Source of the DNA: Pseudomonas sp. FP198
GTDB lineage: Bacteria; Pseudomonadota; Gammaproteobacteria; Pseudomonadales; Pseudomonadaceae
NCBI RefSeq assembly: GCF_030687895.1
Contig: NZ_CP117452.1
Location: 4,766,501 to 4,830,500, forward strand
Direction of reading: 5' to 3'
DNA: 64,000 nt
The notes under the pieces were generated by a model. The model searched no databases and was not told the origin of the DNA. It worked only from the letters and a program-made list of their open reading frames with translations. Positions within the stretch are counted from its first letter, which is position 1. Each line of letters starts with the position of its first letter. Shown in pieces: positions 3,661 through 13,501 of the stretch. A program made the position numbers and the translations under genes.

Positions 3661-4518
3661 ATGAGCAATTTTCCAACCAGCAGCTGCACGCCCCTGCGCC
3701 GCCTCTTGTTGACGTGTGCCGCGCTTGGCCTGGCCGGCAGCGTTCAAGCGGCCACCCTGGATACCGTCAAAAGCAACAGCAGCATCCGCATCGGCTATGC
3801 CAACGAAACGCCGTTTGCGTTCACCGAAACCGACGGCAGCGTGACCGGCGAATCGCCGGAGATCGCCAAGATCATCTTCGCCAGGATGGGCATCAAGCAG
3901 GTCAATGGGGTGCTCACCGAATGGGGCTCGCTGATTCCGGGCCTGCGCGCCGGGCGTTTCGACGTGATTGCCGCCGGCATGTACATTACCCCGGCGCGTT
4001 GCAAGCAAGTGTTGTTCACCGACCCGCAATACCAGTTGCCCGACGCCTTGCTCGTGGCCAAGGGCAATCCGAAAAAGCTCCACAGCTACGAAGACATCGC
4101 CAAACAACCGGACGTGAAGCTGGCGATCATGGCCGGTACGGTCAACCTCGCTTACGCCCGCGACTCGGGGGTCAAGGACGAACAGATCCTCCAGGTTCCC
4201 GACACCACGGCGCAACTGCAAGCGGTGCGCGCCGGTCGCGCCGATGCCGCCGTCGGCACACAACTGACCATGAAAGGCCTGGCCAGCAAGGGCGGCGACA
4301 AAGTCGAGGCGATGACCGAGTTCAAGGACGATCCGTCCCACATCGGCTACGGCGCCCTGGCCTTCCGGCCCGAGGACAAGGACCTGCGCGACGCGGTCAA
4401 CGCCGAGCTGAAGAAGTGGCTGGGCTCGGAGGAACATCTCAAGGCCGTCGCACCCTTCGGTTTCGACAAGTCCAACGTCACCAGCAAGACCGCGGCCGAG
4501 CTCTGCGCTCAGCCGTAA
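3661..4518 (+). CDS. ehuB: EhuB, ectoine/hydroxyectoine-binding periplasmic protein
   Basis: 285 residues with a Sec signal peptide (LRRLLLTCAALGLAGSVQA, cleavage near residue 30) and a bacterial SBP family 3 fold starting SSIRIGYANETPFAFT. GMYITPARCKQVLFTDPQYQ matches the EhuB signature well. It would bind ectoine and hydroxyectoine in the periplasm and deliver them to EhuCD. An AGGAG-type ribosome site precedes ATG 3661. First gene of ehuBCDA, divergent from enuR; an amino acid binding protein is the only serious alternative and the context argues against it. Confidence 0.9.
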   Translation: MSNFPTSSCTPLRRLLLTCAALGLAGSVQAATLDTVKSNSSIRIGYANETPFAFTETDGSVTGESPEIAKIIFARMGIKQVNGVLTEWGSLIPGLRAGRFDVIAAGMYITPARCKQVLFTDPQYQLPDALLVAKGNPKKLHSYEDIAKQPDVKLAIMAGTVNLAYARDSGVKDEQILQVPDTTAQLQAVRAGRADAAVGTQLTMKGLASKGGDKVEAMTEFKDDPSHIGYGALAFRPEDKDLRDAVNAELKKWLGSEEHLKAVAPFGFDKSNVTSKTAAELCAQP

Positions 4519-7887: not shown

Positions 7888-9063
7888 TCACGCCTGCGCC
7901 AGGCAGCGGCTCACCCCTCTGACGATCATCTCGACTTCCCGCCCGTCAATCGTCAACGGCGGCAGCAGGCGAATGGTTTTGCCCCGGGTGACGTTGATCA
8001 GCAAACCATGATCCCGGGCGGCACAGAGGGTCAGGTCGCGAACCGGCTGCTTGAGTTCGATGCCGATCATCAAGCCTTGGCCACGAATATCCAGCACGTT
8101 CGGGTTGTCCGCCAGTTCGGCCCGTAGCCGGCTCAGCAACTGCGCGCCTTGGCGCTTGGCGTTCGCCAGCAGGCCTTGTTCCTCAATGATGTCCAGCACC
8201 GTGCAGCCGACCCGACAGGCCAGCGGATTGCCGCCGAAGGTGCTGCCATGGCTGCCGGGAGTGAACAGCCCGGCGGCCTTGCCGCGCGCCAGGCAGGCAC
8301 CGATGGGTACGCCGTTGCCGAGGCCTTTGGCGAGGGTCATCACGTCCGGCACGATGCCCTCGTGCTGGAACGCGAACCACTGCCCGGTGCGGCCGATGCC
8401 GGTCTGGATCTCGTCGAGCATCAACAACCAGGCGCGCCTGGTGCACAAATCCCGCAAAGCCTTCAGGTAACCCGGTGGTGCGAGTTGTACGCCACTTTCG
8501 CCCTGGATCGGCTCTACCAGGATCGCAACGATGCGCTCGCCGTGGGCTTGCTGGATTTTTTCCAACGCGCCGAGATCGCCGAATGGCACCTTGATGAAAT
8601 CACCTGGCAACCGATTGAAACCCAGCCGCACCGATGGCCCGTCGCTGGCGGACATCGTGCCCAGGGTGCGCCCATGGAAAGCGTTGTCCATCACCACGAC
8701 CAAGGGCTGTTCGACGCCTTTGTGCCAGCCATGCAGGCGGGCCAGCTTCAATGCGGTTTCATTCGCCTCGGCGCCGGAGTTGTTGAAAAACGCCCGTTCC
8801 ATCCCCGAGAGCTGGGTGAGTCTGTGGGCCAACCGCTGCTGCCAGTCGATGCTGTACAGGTTGGACGTGTGCAGCAGCAGGCTGGCCTGTTCGCTGATGG
8901 CCGCCACCAGCCGCGGATGGGAATGACCGACGTTGGTCACCGCCACGCCCGCCACCGCATCCAGATATTCGCGCCCGTCCTGATCCCACAGGCGGGTACC
9001 CAAGCCATGGGTGAAATTCAACGCCAAGGGTTGGTAAGTGCTCATCAGGCAGGCGGCAGTCAT
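7888..9063 (-). CDS. argD: Acetylornithine/succinylornithine-type aminotransferase (ArgD family)
   Basis: 391 residues from ATG 9063 ([17 protein letters not shown]), the start conserved in pseudomonad homologues; ATGs at 9078 and 9108 add little. Class III PLP aminotransferase: [16 protein letters not shown] (about 94-109), [15 protein letters not shown] (about 213-227), PLP lysine K246 in [12 protein letters not shown], and [12 protein letters not shown]. The family interconverts N-acetylornithine and the semialdehyde in arginine synthesis and also acts on succinylornithine or GABA-like substrates. Pseudomonads often have several paralogues, so this copy may be biosynthetic or catabolic. 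It is divergent from a LysR gene, a possible regulator. Confidence 0.8.
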
Positions 9064-9161
9064 GACATCTAGCTCCATCGGGTGGTTTTTTCCAGTATGG
9101 TTAGCCACCCCTACTGGATAAACCTCGCATTACTTCATTCATTTAAAAGCAGAGCTTGATA

Positions 9162-10082
9162 ATGGACCTGTTCCAGGCAATGACCGTTTACGTGAAAGTG
9201 GTGGAAACCGGCAGCCTGACCGCAGCGGCCCAGGCCTGCGAAATGTCCACGACGATGGTCGGCAATCACCTTCGGGCGCTGGAACAACGCCTGGGTGTGC
9301 GCCTGATCAACCGTACGACGCGTCGTCAGCGCTTGACCGAATTCGGCTCGGCCTACTATCAACGTTGCCTGGAAGTGATCGGGCTGGTTGCCGATTCCGA
9401 ACGCCTGGCCGAGCAGACCCAAGGCGATCCCAGCGGCACCTTGCGCATCACCGCGCCGCTGACCTTCGGCACGGAGCGCCTCGCCCCGGCACTGGCCGAA
9501 TACAGCCAGTGTTATCCGCAGGTCAAACTCGACGTTGTCTTGACCAACCAGCGTCTCGACCTGCTCGACCACGGCTTTGACGTCGCCATTCGCCTGGGCC
9601 CTGTCGATCCCAAGCTGATCGCTCGTCCCCTGATGGACTACACCTTGACCGTCTGCGCCTCCAAGACTTACCTGGCACGGCGCGGCACGCCGCAGAAACC
9701 CGAAGACCTGCAACAGCATGACTGCCTGTCGTTTGCCTATTCCGCCGGAGACGAGTGGCGTTTCGCCCAGGAGCACTGGCCCATCAACGGGCCGGAAGGC
9801 GAAATAAAAGTGCCGGTGCGCGGGCCGATGCTGATCAACAGCTCGTCGGGCCTGCACCGTGCGGCGCTGGCCGGCATGGGCGTGGTGATGCTGCCCGATG
9901 CATTGGTGGAGCAGGACCTGAAGAACGGAGACCTGGTGGCCCTCCTGCAAGGCTATCAATTGCCCCACCGCCCGATGAGCCTGCTCTACGCCCAGGATCG
10001 CTACCGTTTGCCGAAATTGCGTAGTTTTGTCGAGTTTGCGTTGGAACGGTGGGGGAGAAGTGTAGGTGAACCGCGACTCTAG
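9162..10082 (+). CDS. LysR-family transcriptional regulator
   Basis: 306 residues from ATG 9162 (MDLFQAMTVYVKVVETGSL). N-terminal winged helix (about 3-62) with AAAQACEMSTTMVGNHLRAL, then a periplasmic-binding-protein-like effector domain starting SGTLRITAPLTFG. It is of the PA-type LysR subgroup that often regulates a divergent target, here the argD-type gene 98 bp away. Ligand unknown. Confidence 0.85.
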   Translation: MDLFQAMTVYVKVVETGSLTAAAQACEMSTTMVGNHLRALEQRLGVRLINRTTRRQRLTEFGSAYYQRCLEVIGLVADSERLAEQTQGDPSGTLRITAPLTFGTERLAPALAEYSQCYPQVKLDVVLTNQRLDLLDHGFDVAIRLGPVDPKLIARPLMDYTLTVCASKTYLARRGTPQKPEDLQQHDCLSFAYSAGDEWRFAQEHWPINGPEGEIKVPVRGPMLINSSSGLHRAALAGMGVVMLPDALVEQDLKNGDLVALLQGYQLPHRPMSLLYAQDRYRLPKLRSFVEFALERWGRSVGEPRL

Positions 10083-10129
10083 AGTAGCCAAATAGGGCTA
10101 CTATTGCAGAAGTAGCTTTTTAAGGCTAC
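10083..10129 (+). repeat. Left 47-bp terminal inverted repeat of the SatD/DUF3307 cassette
   Basis: It is built of two palindromes: GTAGCC-N6-GGCTAC (10084-10101) and GTAGC-N8-GCTAC (10112-10129), 28 bp apart centre to centre. Its reverse complement aligns without gaps to 11523-11569, with about 35 of 47 bases identical and the outer blocks nearly perfect. It starts immediately after the LysR stop and ends 30 bp before the first cassette gene, so it could also act as an operator. Confidence 0.8.
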
Positions 10130-10159
10130 GTTGCGACATCCAATGATCGAGCAACTTCA

Positions 10160-10777
10160 ATGAAGCCAGAAGCGGTATTGACCGGTGATCTGATTCACTC
10201 GCAAAGCGCGGAGAATACGTTCGCGTATATCGCCCGCTTGGAAAAAACATTGGAGCGACTGGAAAAACGCTACAAAGCGAAAGCGGACGTCTTTCGAGGT
10301 GATGGTTTTCAACTTTTGCTGGACCGACCCGAACAGGCTTTCCATTGCGCCATCGCCTTGCGAGCCGCCTTGGTCGAGGCCAGCCCGGAAGGGGAACGTT
10401 GGGATGCACGCATCGCCGTAGGCATAGGCTCTGCACGTAAATCGCAGACATATCGGGAAGCATTCATTTTGTCCGGCCAGGGGCTCGACAGCATGAAAAA
10501 AAGCACGCTCGCGGTGTTCAGCACCCATCAGGAGTTTCAGGAGCGCGCGGGACTGGTGACAGAGTTCGTGGCCGCTGTACTGGAGGGCTGGACAGCTGTT
10601 GAAGCCCAGACCTACGCACTGCATTTGATTGAACAAACCGACCAACAAACTATCGCCCACATGCTGGGCAAATCCCGGGTCACTGTAAACAAAGCGCTGC
10701 AGCGCGCCCAGGCACGTCTACTGGATAAATACCTGGCAAGCACAAACCGGTGGATCAAGGAGCTGGCCCGTGATTGA
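10160..10777 (+). CDS. SatD-family protein with C-terminal helix-turn-helix
   Basis: 205 residues, resembling the SatD family. The N-terminal part shows the order AVLTGDLIHS (D10), VFRGDGFQLLL (D48) and ARIAVGIGSARK (83-94), then LSGQGLDSMKK (104-114). This order recalls class III nucleotide cyclase/palm domains, with two metal-binding aspartates and a VNxAAR-like segment. Residues about 162-186 (QQTIAHMLGKSRVTVNKALQ) form a sigma-region-4-like helix-turn-helix. It overlaps the DUF3307 gene by 8 bp. Base composition is more AT-rich than the neighbours. Cyclase activity is inference; the family's function is not established. Confidence 0.65.
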   Translation: MKPEAVLTGDLIHSQSAENTFAYIARLEKTLERLEKRYKAKADVFRGDGFQLLLDRPEQAFHCAIALRAALVEASPEGERWDARIAVGIGSARKSQTYREAFILSGQGLDSMKKSTLAVFSTHQEFQERAGLVTEFVAAVLEGWTAVEAQTYALHLIEQTDQQTIAHMLGKSRVTVNKALQRAQARLLDKYLASTNRWIKELARD

Positions 10778-11504
10778 AGCGTCAACGTTACTCGCTATTT
10801 TATTACTGGCACACGTGCTTCTAGACTTCTGGGTATCTAGCTATTGGACTATTGAAACCTCTGCAAGCCGCAAGCAAAAGGTCGTGTTCCACTTGGTGAC
10901 CTTCGGCGTTTATTTCGTAGTTTTTTCATTGCTGATGATCTTGTCGCGTGAAAACGGCGCTTTCGCTTGGAAGGCTGGGCTCATGATGTCAACCGCCAAG
11001 CTGTTAACCCTGATCCAAACTCCAACCTCATTCAAATCGCCGATATGGGCTTTACTGGCCAGACAAACTGTTCTGATTGCCAGTCTGGTCACGATCTGGC
11101 TGCTTTCCGAAAGCAATGCAGCGCATATTCAAGGCTCTCTGGCAGAACTGATTACCACGGCGAATATCACGATTGGCCTAGCTTATGTATTGATGCTACG
11201 TCCTGCTTCAGCATTGATCGGCACAATACTCAACCCGTGGATCAAAGAGATCGACACTGGCGGCTCACTGACCAACGCTGGGACATTGATCGGGTATCTG
11301 GAGCGGATACTTATTTTGACATTTGTTTTACTGGAACAATGGGAGGCCGTCGGCTTCCTCCTGACGGCGAAAAGCATCCTTCGCTTCAACGAAATCCAGA
11401 ACGCCAAGGTACGCTCCATCAGCGAGTACGTACTGCTGGGTACGCTGCTGAGCTTCACTTTAAGCATCGGAACGGGGCTGCTCGTTGCGTATATCACGAG
11501 ATAG
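10770..11504 (+). CDS. DUF3307 multi-pass membrane protein
   Basis: 244 residues from GTG 10770, with AAGGAG 7 bp upstream inside the preceding gene. Hydrophobic spans are visible near 5-23, 42-60, 92-110, 130-150, 172-195 and 218-240. The N-terminal LLAHVLLDFW and the C-terminal block GTLIGYLERILILTFVLLEQ followed by GFLLTAKSILRF are the recognisable DUF3307 features. It is translationally coupled to the SatD-like gene, implying equal expression and a shared function, perhaps as a membrane partner or effector. Function unknown; AT-rich relative to flanks. Confidence 0.7.
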   Translation: MIEASTLLAILLLAHVLLDFWVSSYWTIETSASRKQKVVFHLVTFGVYFVVFSLLMILSRENGAFAWKAGLMMSTAKLLTLIQTPTSFKSPIWALLARQTVLIASLVTIWLLSESNAAHIQGSLAELITTANITIGLAYVLMLRPASALIGTILNPWIKEIDTGGSLTNAGTLIGYLERILILTFVLLEQWEAVGFLLTAKSILRFNEIQNAKVRSISEYVLLGTLLSFTLSIGTGLLVAYITR

Positions 11505-11522
11505 AAACGCATCTTTCTTTAA

Positions 11523-11569
11523 GTAGCCTTAAAAAGGCACTTTCCGTTTTGTAGCCTAATTAGGCTACT
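11523..11569 (-). repeat. Right 47-bp terminal inverted repeat of the SatD/DUF3307 cassette
   Basis: Mirror image of 10083-10129. GTAGCC-N7-GGCAC (degenerate) at 11523-11540 is followed by the perfect palindrome GTAGCCTAATTAGGCTAC at 11551-11568, again 28 bp centre to centre. It starts 18 bp after the DUF3307 stop and lies about 100 bp upstream of the diguanylate cyclase gene. Confidence 0.8.
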
Positions 11570-11667
11570 TTTAAGACGTTATGTCCCACTAGTGACCCTA
11601 GAGCCCATCGGCTACTCTTCACCCTTGGAAGAGCATTTTGATATCAGGGCTGATTGAGGGAACGATG

Positions 11668-12681
11668 ATGGACGACGCCTCGAAGATCGATTTGCTGCGG
11701 TTCGATTTGTCCGATCTGGACGAAAACGTGCTGCACACCATCATGGAACTGGTCAGCGATGGCATCTGGGACTGGAACGCCAACACCGGCTTCGTCTATC
11801 GAAATCCCGGCTGGTACACGATGCTCGGTTATACGCCGCACTCCCTGAGCAACACCGTGCTGACCTGGGAGAGCGTGATCCACCCGGAAGATTATCCCCA
11901 CGTGATGGCGCTATTCGACGATTACCTCGAACAACGCGCCTCGAAGTACCAGGCCGAATACCGCTGCCGCGCCCAAGACGGCTCTTATATCTGGATCGAA
12001 GACCGCGGCTACGTGATCGCCCGCAACCCCGATGGCAGTGTTGCCCGCATGATCGGTGCCCATCGCAGCATCGACGACAAGAAGCGTCTGTTCGAACAAC
12101 TTGAACGGCGCAACAAGTCCCTCGAAGCCATCATCGAAGAACGCACCCGCGAACTGTCCCGGGTCAACGAGCAGTTGCAAATCCAGCTCGAGGAAAACCG
12201 CAGGCTCGCCGAAACCGACGCCCTTACGCTGGTCGCCAACCGCTATCGCCTGGAACAGGCGCTACCATTGGCCTGTGAACGTGCGCAGCGCTTTCGCGAG
12301 CCGTTGTCGCTGATTGCCATGGATGTCGACGACTTCAAGGACATCAACGATCGCTACGGCCATGCTTTCGGCGACGCGGCGCTGGTGCAAGTGGTACAGG
12401 CGGTCAAGCGCTGCGAGCGCGACGGCGATCTGCTGGTGCGCTGGGGTGGCGATGAATTCATCATGATCTTGCCCAACACCTCCAAGGCCGACGCATTCCT
12501 GTTGGCCGAAACCATTCGCCGCGGCCTGTCCGACCTGCTGCCGGTGGGCGATTTCCAGATCACCATGAGCTTTGGCGTGGTGCAACGCCGCGAAGACGAA
12601 CCGCAAGCAGCGCTACTGGATCGGGCTGACCAGGCACTGTATCGCTCCAAGATGGCCGGCAAGAATGTGATTTGTGATTGA
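11668..12681 (+). CDS. PAS-GGDEF diguanylate cyclase
   Basis: 337 residues. The second of two adjacent ATGs (11665, 11668) is chosen because AGGG lies 7 bp upstream. A PAS_3 domain (about 28-140: DGIWDWN, WESVIHPEDYP, RCRAQDGSYIWIEDRG) and a short coiled coil (140-180) lead into an intact GGDEF domain with active site RWGGDEF (260-264) and MDVDDFKDIND. An RxxD inhibitory site (R251-D254) lies exactly five residues before GGDEF. It should make c-di-GMP in the cytoplasm with product inhibition. No transmembrane segment; the PAS ligand is unknown. Confidence 0.88.
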   Translation: MDDASKIDLLRFDLSDLDENVLHTIMELVSDGIWDWNANTGFVYRNPGWYTMLGYTPHSLSNTVLTWESVIHPEDYPHVMALFDDYLEQRASKYQAEYRCRAQDGSYIWIEDRGYVIARNPDGSVARMIGAHRSIDDKKRLFEQLERRNKSLEAIIEERTRELSRVNEQLQIQLEENRRLAETDALTLVANRYRLEQALPLACERAQRFREPLSLIAMDVDDFKDINDRYGHAFGDAALVQVVQAVKRCERDGDLLVRWGGDEFIMILPNTSKADAFLLAETIRRGLSDLLPVGDFQITMSFGVVQRREDEPQAALLDRADQALYRSKMAGKNVICD

Positions 12682-12757
12682 ACGGGCAATGTCCGATTGG
12701 ATCCTCAGGCCGCTGCGGTGGTCATAGGCTGTAACTCTTGCAATCAGGTCCTCGCCA

Positions 12758-13501
12758 TTGCCGACTCGCCCTCTCTCCTCTTCGCCCGTGTTGGTGGGTT
12801 GCGCGGGCTGGTCGCTGCCAAGGGAGCAATGGCCCGCTTTTCCCCTTGAAGGCACCCATTTGCAGCGCTACAGCGGCCGCTTCCCGGCGGTGGAAATCAA
12901 CAGTTCGTTCTACCGCCCGCACCGTCCCGCCACCTATGCAAAATGGGCCGACAGTGTGCCGGCGGGCTTTCGCTTCTCAGTCAAGGTGCCCAAGCAGATC
13001 ACCCATGAGCGGCGCTTGCATGATTGCGAGGGGCTGGTGGATGAGTTCCTCGGGCAATGCTCGCAACTACGGGAGAAACTTGGTTGCCTGTTGATCCAGT
13101 TGCCGCCGTCGCTGGCCTTCGATAACACCCAGGCCGAGGGCTTTTTCAAAGCCTTGCGTGACCGTTACCAGGGCCACGCGGTACTCGAACCCCGGCACCC
13201 GAGCTGGCTCGCGCCACAGGCCATGGCACTGCTTGAGAAAGAGCGCATCGCCCGCGTCGCCGCCGACCCGTCGCCTCTGCCGGGCGGCGATCAACCGGCG
13301 GGCTGGGCGGGCGTGCGTTATTACCGGCTGCATGGCTCGCCGCGCATTTATTACTCTGCCTACGAAGACACCTGGCTGCAGCGACTGGCAGACCTACTGA
13401 AGGCTGCCCCGGACACGCCGACCTGGTGCATCTTCGACAACACCGCCAGCGGCGCCGCAACGCCCGATGCGTTGCGATTGCTGGAGCTGCTGCGCGACTG
13501 A
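12758..13501 (+). CDS. DUF72 (YecE-like) protein
   Basis: 247 residues, a TIM-barrel DUF72 protein: GCAGWSLP (14-21), EINSSFYRPHR, FRFSVKVPKQITH, LLIQLPPSL and YYRLHGSPRIYYSAY are the family blocks. No enzymatic activity is established for the family. Monocistronic, on the same strand as the diguanylate cyclase with a 76-bp gap. Confidence 0.85.
   Translation: MPTRPLSSSPVLVGCAGWSLPREQWPAFPLEGTHLQRYSGRFPAVEINSSFYRPHRPATYAKWADSVPAGFRFSVKVPKQITHERRLHDCEGLVDEFLGQCSQLREKLGCLLIQLPPSLAFDNTQAEGFFKALRDRYQGHAVLEPRHPSWLAPQAMALLEKERIARVAADPSPLPGGDQPAGWAGVRYYRLHGSPRIYYSAYEDTWLQRLADLLKAAPDTPTWCIFDNTASGAATPDALRLLELLRD

Follow-up and report, generated by a model that had tools for sequence, protein, structure and literature searches.

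What reads the paired palindromes that enclose a two-gene cassette in the chromosome of Pseudomonas sp. FP198? The cassette lies in a stretch of 64,000 nucleotides (contig NZ_CP117452.1, positions 4,766,501 to 4,830,500; hereafter the window, in whose numbering coordinates are given) and holds a SatD-like gene, satD below, followed by a DUF3307-like gene. A preliminary description, made from the letters of the DNA, saw in it a mobile or modular unit, and mentioned as an alternative that the palindromes are operators bound by the helix-turn-helix (HTH) of the first protein. It is this alternative that a comparison of related loci supports well, through the conserved place of the palindromes upstream of satD and their covariation with the HTH. 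To a self-regulated two-gene operon, whose regulator would have a nucleotide-cyclase fold, we give a probability of about 0.6; the position, spacing and covariation of the operators are what the comparison lets us see. The features are the following.

10084-10101, no strand: upstream palindrome 1, GTAGCC-N6-GGCTAC with 0 mismatches
10112-10129, no strand: upstream palindrome 2, GTAGCC-N6-GGCTAC with 1 mismatch
10160-10777, + strand: SatD-like gene; residues ~1-121 of the product have a nucleotide-cyclase/GGDEF/Cas10-palm fold, followed by a C-terminal HTH
10676-10705, + strand: codons of the presumed recognition helix, residues 173-182; residue 177 is codon 10688-10690
10770-11504, + strand: DUF3307-like gene, overlapping satD by 8 bp; all-helical product, probably a multi-pass membrane protein
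11523-11540, no strand: downstream palindrome 3, degenerate
11551-11568, no strand: downstream palindrome 4, GTAGCC-N6-GGCTAC with 0 mismatches

The inverted repeats and the overlapping genes are as first described. The repeat arms (10074-10129 and 11523-11578) are 56 nt long and 71% complementary, each with two palindromes whose centres lie 28 bp apart; the one at 11523 is degenerate, and 3 of the 24 positions of the downstream pair are mismatched. With up to 2 mismatches allowed, GTAGCC-N6-GGCTAC occurs 8 times in the window against 1.8 expected, and 0 of 100 shuffles had as many. Single palindromes (at most 1 mismatch) are at background in the host genome, G000, with 23 places against 26 for the reversed pattern, so that a lone palindrome is not special. 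The pair, at up to 3 mismatches, is found in that genome at these two sites only (reversed control 0). REP and REPIN repeats have many dispersed genomic copies; with the paired site present only here and singles at background, the palindromes do not belong to them.

We examined 35 satD loci, 25 of the window's family (15 from a family-level search) and 10 outside it (from an order-level search); weak or partial matches (G085 and G106 from the genus, L088-L094 from the order, L093 and L190-L193 from the family) were dropped before this count. Upstream of satD, a paired site stands in 31 of the 35, spaced at 28 bp in 26 loci and at 29 bp in 5. A pair was accepted at up to 4 mismatches of 20 scored positions, a score that no more than 3 of 100 Markov shuffles reached; it was not seen under this criterion at L078, L081, L083 and L086. 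Behind the DUF3307-like gene a 28-bp pair is found in 18 of the 25 family loci, 12 of which have the stop codon of the second gene within the first downstream palindrome, and in none of the 10 loci outside the family. Since the upstream pair stands alone outside the family and in 7 of the 25 family loci, the palindromes are not simply the ends of an element.

The arms are of the GTAGCC, GTAACC, TTAGCC or ATAGCC type, at times mixed within one site. Base 1 of the arm was left free in the scoring; it was called G where at least 3 of the 4 upstream half-sites start with G, and A/T where at most 1 does. All 19 scored loci with asparagine or threonine at residue 177 have G, and all 11 with histidine have A/T; L087 has serine with A/T, and four loci were left unscored. 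Because the arms change with this residue of the recognition helix, the palindromes are most likely, by prediction from these sequences, operators of the SatD-like protein itself.

The upstream pair may coincide with the promoter of the operon. An alignment of the 26 upstream sites with 28-bp spacing suggests a -35 element in the spacer and a -10 element (TACttT) at the end of palindrome 2, which in the window would be:

10104-10109, + strand: candidate -35, TTGCAG, in the 10-bp spacer
10127-10132, + strand: candidate -10, TACGTT, at the end of palindrome 2

In this alignment the spacer letters T, T and G are found in 24, 22 and 20 of the 26 sites, and a T directly follows palindrome 2 in 23; the mirror positions are less conserved (14 of 26, and 10 of 26 for the last T).

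Sites without the cassette exist as well. The GTAGCC pair occurs in 10 of 398 genomes of the genus (16 sites, control 0): six have two sites each at satD loci, and G112, G124, G173 and G239 have a single site and no satD. All four single sites have the LysR gene on one side and the DUF72 gene on the other, the position at which G010 carries the cassette, and the flanks outside G010's two sites continue in G112. Of 28 other LysR matches, with orthology shown for some only, 27 have no pair even at 5 of 24 mismatches; the exception, L064, has one weak match at that threshold. Among the four single sites (L043-L046), none of the 24 arm positions differs and 2-11 of the 22 centre and spacer positions do; G124 and G173, with flanks 92-93% identical, differ at 7 of these 22 and at no arm position. 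G085 keeps a remnant of satD with decayed sites. Four genomes in all lack the cassette at the same spot and keep one paired site there, in partial support of mobility. Loss of the cassette can thus leave a single site behind; homologous deletion is enough for this, and a recombinase is not needed.

The same paired site is also found in viral contigs. Exact scans gave 59 GTAACC, 6 GTAGCC, 1 TTAGCC and 0 ATAGCC pairs, and 0 and 0 for two scrambled pairs. Each of the 65 GTAACC or GTAGCC regions (L110-L174) has one clear pair, with a second in L151 at up to 6 mismatches. Of the 54 upstream open reading frames (ORFs) found, 46 end 10-11 nt short of the site, and 55 of the 56 ORFs found downstream have their start codon 12-13 nt beyond it. 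The upstream ORFs sort into 12 families; the largest comprises 37 of the 54, and its one scanned member (L112) is a C5-methylase; downstream ORFs form 4 single-linkage groups, with 48 of 56 in one group that may be over-merged. On one side of the site, L170 has genes for RecT, RecE, a queuine tRNA-ribosyltransferase and a PAPS-reductase, and on the other genes for an excisionase and an integrase. The contigs look like those of temperate phages, with the palindromes in a conserved intergenic linker amid variable genes. A search of phage records with two such linkers gave no match, and none of the phage records matched SatD. A further contig (L194) carries its TTAGCC pair (4371-4416) immediately after genes for a HipA-like protein and an HTH protein; SatD was not found in it.

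Phage-type sites also occur in the genus, where the RTAACC pair matches 5 of 398 genomes; one of them, G237, with 3 mismatches, was discounted as a chance match. GTAACC pairs away from satD lie in G068, G085 (three), G152 and G235. Those of G068, G085 and G235 share the linker with one another and with the viral sites; the G068 site stands beside a C5-methylase gene, and that of G152 near a RecT gene. Three of the four genomes carry satD of the GTAACC clade, in G085 as a remnant; the four are relatives, and this co-occurrence does not serve as an independent test. In G068 the locus has neither cassette nor site. When 95 genomes around G235 were scanned, most of them for a second time, only G235 itself was returned. 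At the phage sites the binder may be the host SatD-like protein or a protein of the phage, or the sites may work in some other manner. That a bacterial palm-fold/membrane operon and temperate phages have one operator design in common is unexpected; should this sharing have a function, cells would have a novel means of sensing phage DNA, or phages one of reading a regulator of the host.

Several observations weigh against a self-regulated operon. Residue N goes with ATAGC arms, as judged by eye, in the unscored L083 (best spacing 24), and L078, L081 and L086 have no clear pair. On a tree, the N/T and H labels require 3 changes, with H in two separate clades; one of the changes falls at L083, whose placement the tree program called unsure, and most of the covariation follows clades. 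The arms are intact in the four satD-less genomes, and no satD was found in the 65 viral regions; another protein must bind these sites, or they are young or act in some other way. A promoter scan of the site gave no consensus promoter (none at 9 of 12), and the likely -10 element of the GTAACC clade lies further downstream. Finally, strong hairpins are predicted for the RNA of both window sites (z -4.3 and -3.3), which may have a role as RNA.

We nevertheless propose the following scheme for the self-regulated operon. Through its C-terminal HTH, as the comparison suggests, the SatD-like protein would bind the paired palindromes, with a dimer probably on each of the two dyads; the upstream pair would overlap the operon promoter, and the bound protein would act as a repressor. 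Under stress, the N-terminal cyclase-fold domain might sense or make a nucleotide, and so release the DNA or signal to the DUF3307-like membrane protein, the putative output. Where members of the family have a downstream pair, this could be a second binding site, for a loop or as an insulator. Recombination between similar sites would remove the cassette with one site left. The same operator in temperate phages would tie the system to phage in some manner. A clade-specific double operator of this kind predicts protein-DNA partners, and its targets can be read from sequence.

What kind of proteins would such an operon encode? Both names are loose. The window proteins score under the curated Pfam cut-offs, with 17.7 bits against a gathering cut-off of 29 for SatD (PF16264) and 15.0 against 23 for DUF3307 (PF11750); relatives at 38-40% identity, such as P0100 for SatD, and P0185 for DUF3307, do bear the labels, and the order of the two genes is the same as in SatD/DUF3307 pairs. 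The nucleotide-cyclase-like nature of the first protein has held up. By fold it belongs to the nucleotide cyclase/palm superfamily; the acidic residues D10 and D48, candidates for metal binding, are invariant in 44 of 44 aligned sequences, and its GDGF motif, with a conserved Asp, aligns with that of Ma1120. It thus shares fold and motif with class III nucleotidyl cyclases such as Ma1120 and with GGDEF and Cas10 palm domains, from which it differs as a small palm domain fused to a C-terminal HTH; any catalytic activity would be putative. The structure model of the partner contains helices only. Among the matches listed in a literature search, none gave a function for the pair. For ORF187 of RsoM2USA, a jumbo phage of Ralstonia, a published listing gives a protein with a DUF3307 domain as the best hit (PMC8504454).

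The preliminary description likened the organisation to that of CBASS and Pycsar; a defence function of this kind would be hypothetical. Two known defence systems resemble the unit. Pycsar consists of a cyclase and a transmembrane effector. Going by this description, the window unit likewise joins a cyclase-fold protein to a probable membrane partner, but it has in addition an HTH and operators. Panoptes is also made of two genes, OptS and OptE, for a palm-fold and a membrane protein, and the paper that describes it contains neither "helix-turn-helix" nor "SatD" (0 occurrences; PMC12657218). OptS (9pd0) is among the Foldseek matches of the SatD-like protein, at rank 40. OptE, the one known defence effector compared with the partner, has according to the same paper two transmembrane helices and a beta-rich soluble domain, whereas the window partner is all-helical in its model; the partner does not look like an S-2TM-beta effector of the Panoptes kind.

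The gene pair is patchily distributed. A search of the genus matched 10 of 298 genomes (8 at full length, the window's own included, the remnant in G085 and a weak match in G106); those at family and order level matched 21 of 298 and 17 of 341, several weakly. Relatives of the pair are present in several bacterial groups. Among 72,556 plasmid records, 16 carry distant SatD relatives, and in the four plasmid regions read (pEC34A, pPFL, pDW108 and pM138.1) the next gene is annotated DUF3307. On the mobilizable E. coli plasmid pEC34A (L095), of 3770 bp, the pair makes up two of the five genes annotated. SatD also matches six plasmid records from Klebsiella, five of 3770 bp and one of 4424 bp. In pDW108 of Enterobacter kobei (L097) the pair lies near genes matching GajA and GajB (Gabija), with an IS3 transposase between. 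A viral contig (L195, 5983-10155) carries a distant pair, then one ORF and a phage integrase gene on the other strand.

An anti-phage system like Pycsar or Panoptes, in which the first protein makes or senses a cyclic nucleotide and its membrane partner kills or blocks cells under infection, is the most probable of the other explanations. It is compatible with the operon; we hold it possible, with the odds against it. The palm/cyclase fold with its conserved Asp, the probable membrane partner, the patchy occurrence and the distant pairs on a 3.8-kb plasmid, beside GajA/GajB on another and near the viral-contig integrase would all suit it. A PADLOC scan of the window proteins, however, gave CARF3 alone, with a weak E of 0.002 (presence of Pycsar models in the library being unconfirmed), and no PADLOC model matched the L195 pair; the chromosomal neighbours of the cassette (aminotransferase, LysR, GGDEF and DUF72 genes) are not defence genes, and SatD is cited in PMC10326533 for secretion and as an acid-tolerance protein.

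Another regulator, of host or phage, might instead bind the sites and have the operon as one of its targets, which would account for the sites in phages and for the intact arms of the four empty loci. We think this unlikely: the GTAGCC pair in the 398 genomes of the genus is found only at satD loci or at the empty spot, and arm type tracks the satD clade within one genus. Just as unlikely, in our estimate, is that the SatD-like protein serves as a phage alarm and reads the double palindrome in the early region of temperate phages. As an entering phage multiplies, its many copies of the site would then titrate the protein away from the promoter of the host operon, or the protein would block the phage early operon, with release of the membrane effector; satD clades would read the GTAGCC or the GTAACC type.

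That the palindromes act as RNA hairpins, which would terminate and insulate transcription or serve as signals for processing, both around an operon gained by horizontal transfer and within one of phages, is improbable. The strong folds of the two window sites and of one viral site (z -3.8), the T-rich tracts that follow the palindromes, and the closeness of the viral site to the next start codon would fit such a role. Yet the arm letters are conserved beyond mere pairing and track the HTH residue, the spacing is 28 or 29 bp, no Rfam match was obtained for the palindromes, and of the four in the window the degenerate palindrome 3 alone scores as terminator-like. The two centres of a site pair with each other at 4.17 of 6 positions, against 3.18 in shuffles, in 23 host sites that fit an exact arm pattern (0 of 1000 shuffles as high); pairing is low in viral sites (1.58), and it is not a general rule.

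Least probable of all is that the palindromes are recombination sites, where a trans-acting enzyme moves the cassette, a single site is its excision product, and phages exchange modules: four genomes do have one intact pair where a close relative has site, cassette and site, the viral site does lie amid variable genes, and the centres and spacers of single sites do vary beyond their flanks as repeated excision or exchange would make them, but the cassette holds no recombinase, downstream pairs are lacking outside the family, some loci have no site, arm/HTH covariation is not expected of such sites, and homologous deletion between similar 46-bp sites explains single sites without an enzyme.

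Mobility itself stands in part. The patchy occurrence, the loci with one site or none and the distant pairs on plasmids or near a viral integrase agree with a mobile or modular unit; the many loci with an upstream pair alone do not, nor does the gene content, as neither gene between the repeats matches a recombinase in Pfam. With no transposase or recombinase encoded there, the cassette is not an insertion sequence or transposon. The preliminary description had held that fixed presence of the pair in all relatives would argue against mobility, and that palindromes spread genome-wide without the genes would make them an unrelated repeat. We found neither: the gene pair is not fixed, and the paired palindromes are not genome-wide and are present in phages.

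The cassette differs from its surroundings in composition, as had been noted: in 500-bp windows its GC (guanine plus cytosine) fraction is 0.48-0.56 (10000-11749), against 0.59-0.63 at 9000-9999 and 0.60-0.61 at 11750-12999. The LysR gene upstream and the PAS-GGDEF gene downstream (11638-12681) were likewise correctly recognized. Since the PAS-GGDEF gene adjoins LysR in six genomes without any palindrome pair, out of ten of the other LysR loci inspected closely, and is missing in G010 between the paired site and the DUF72 gene, it is a neighbour of the unit and not a member.
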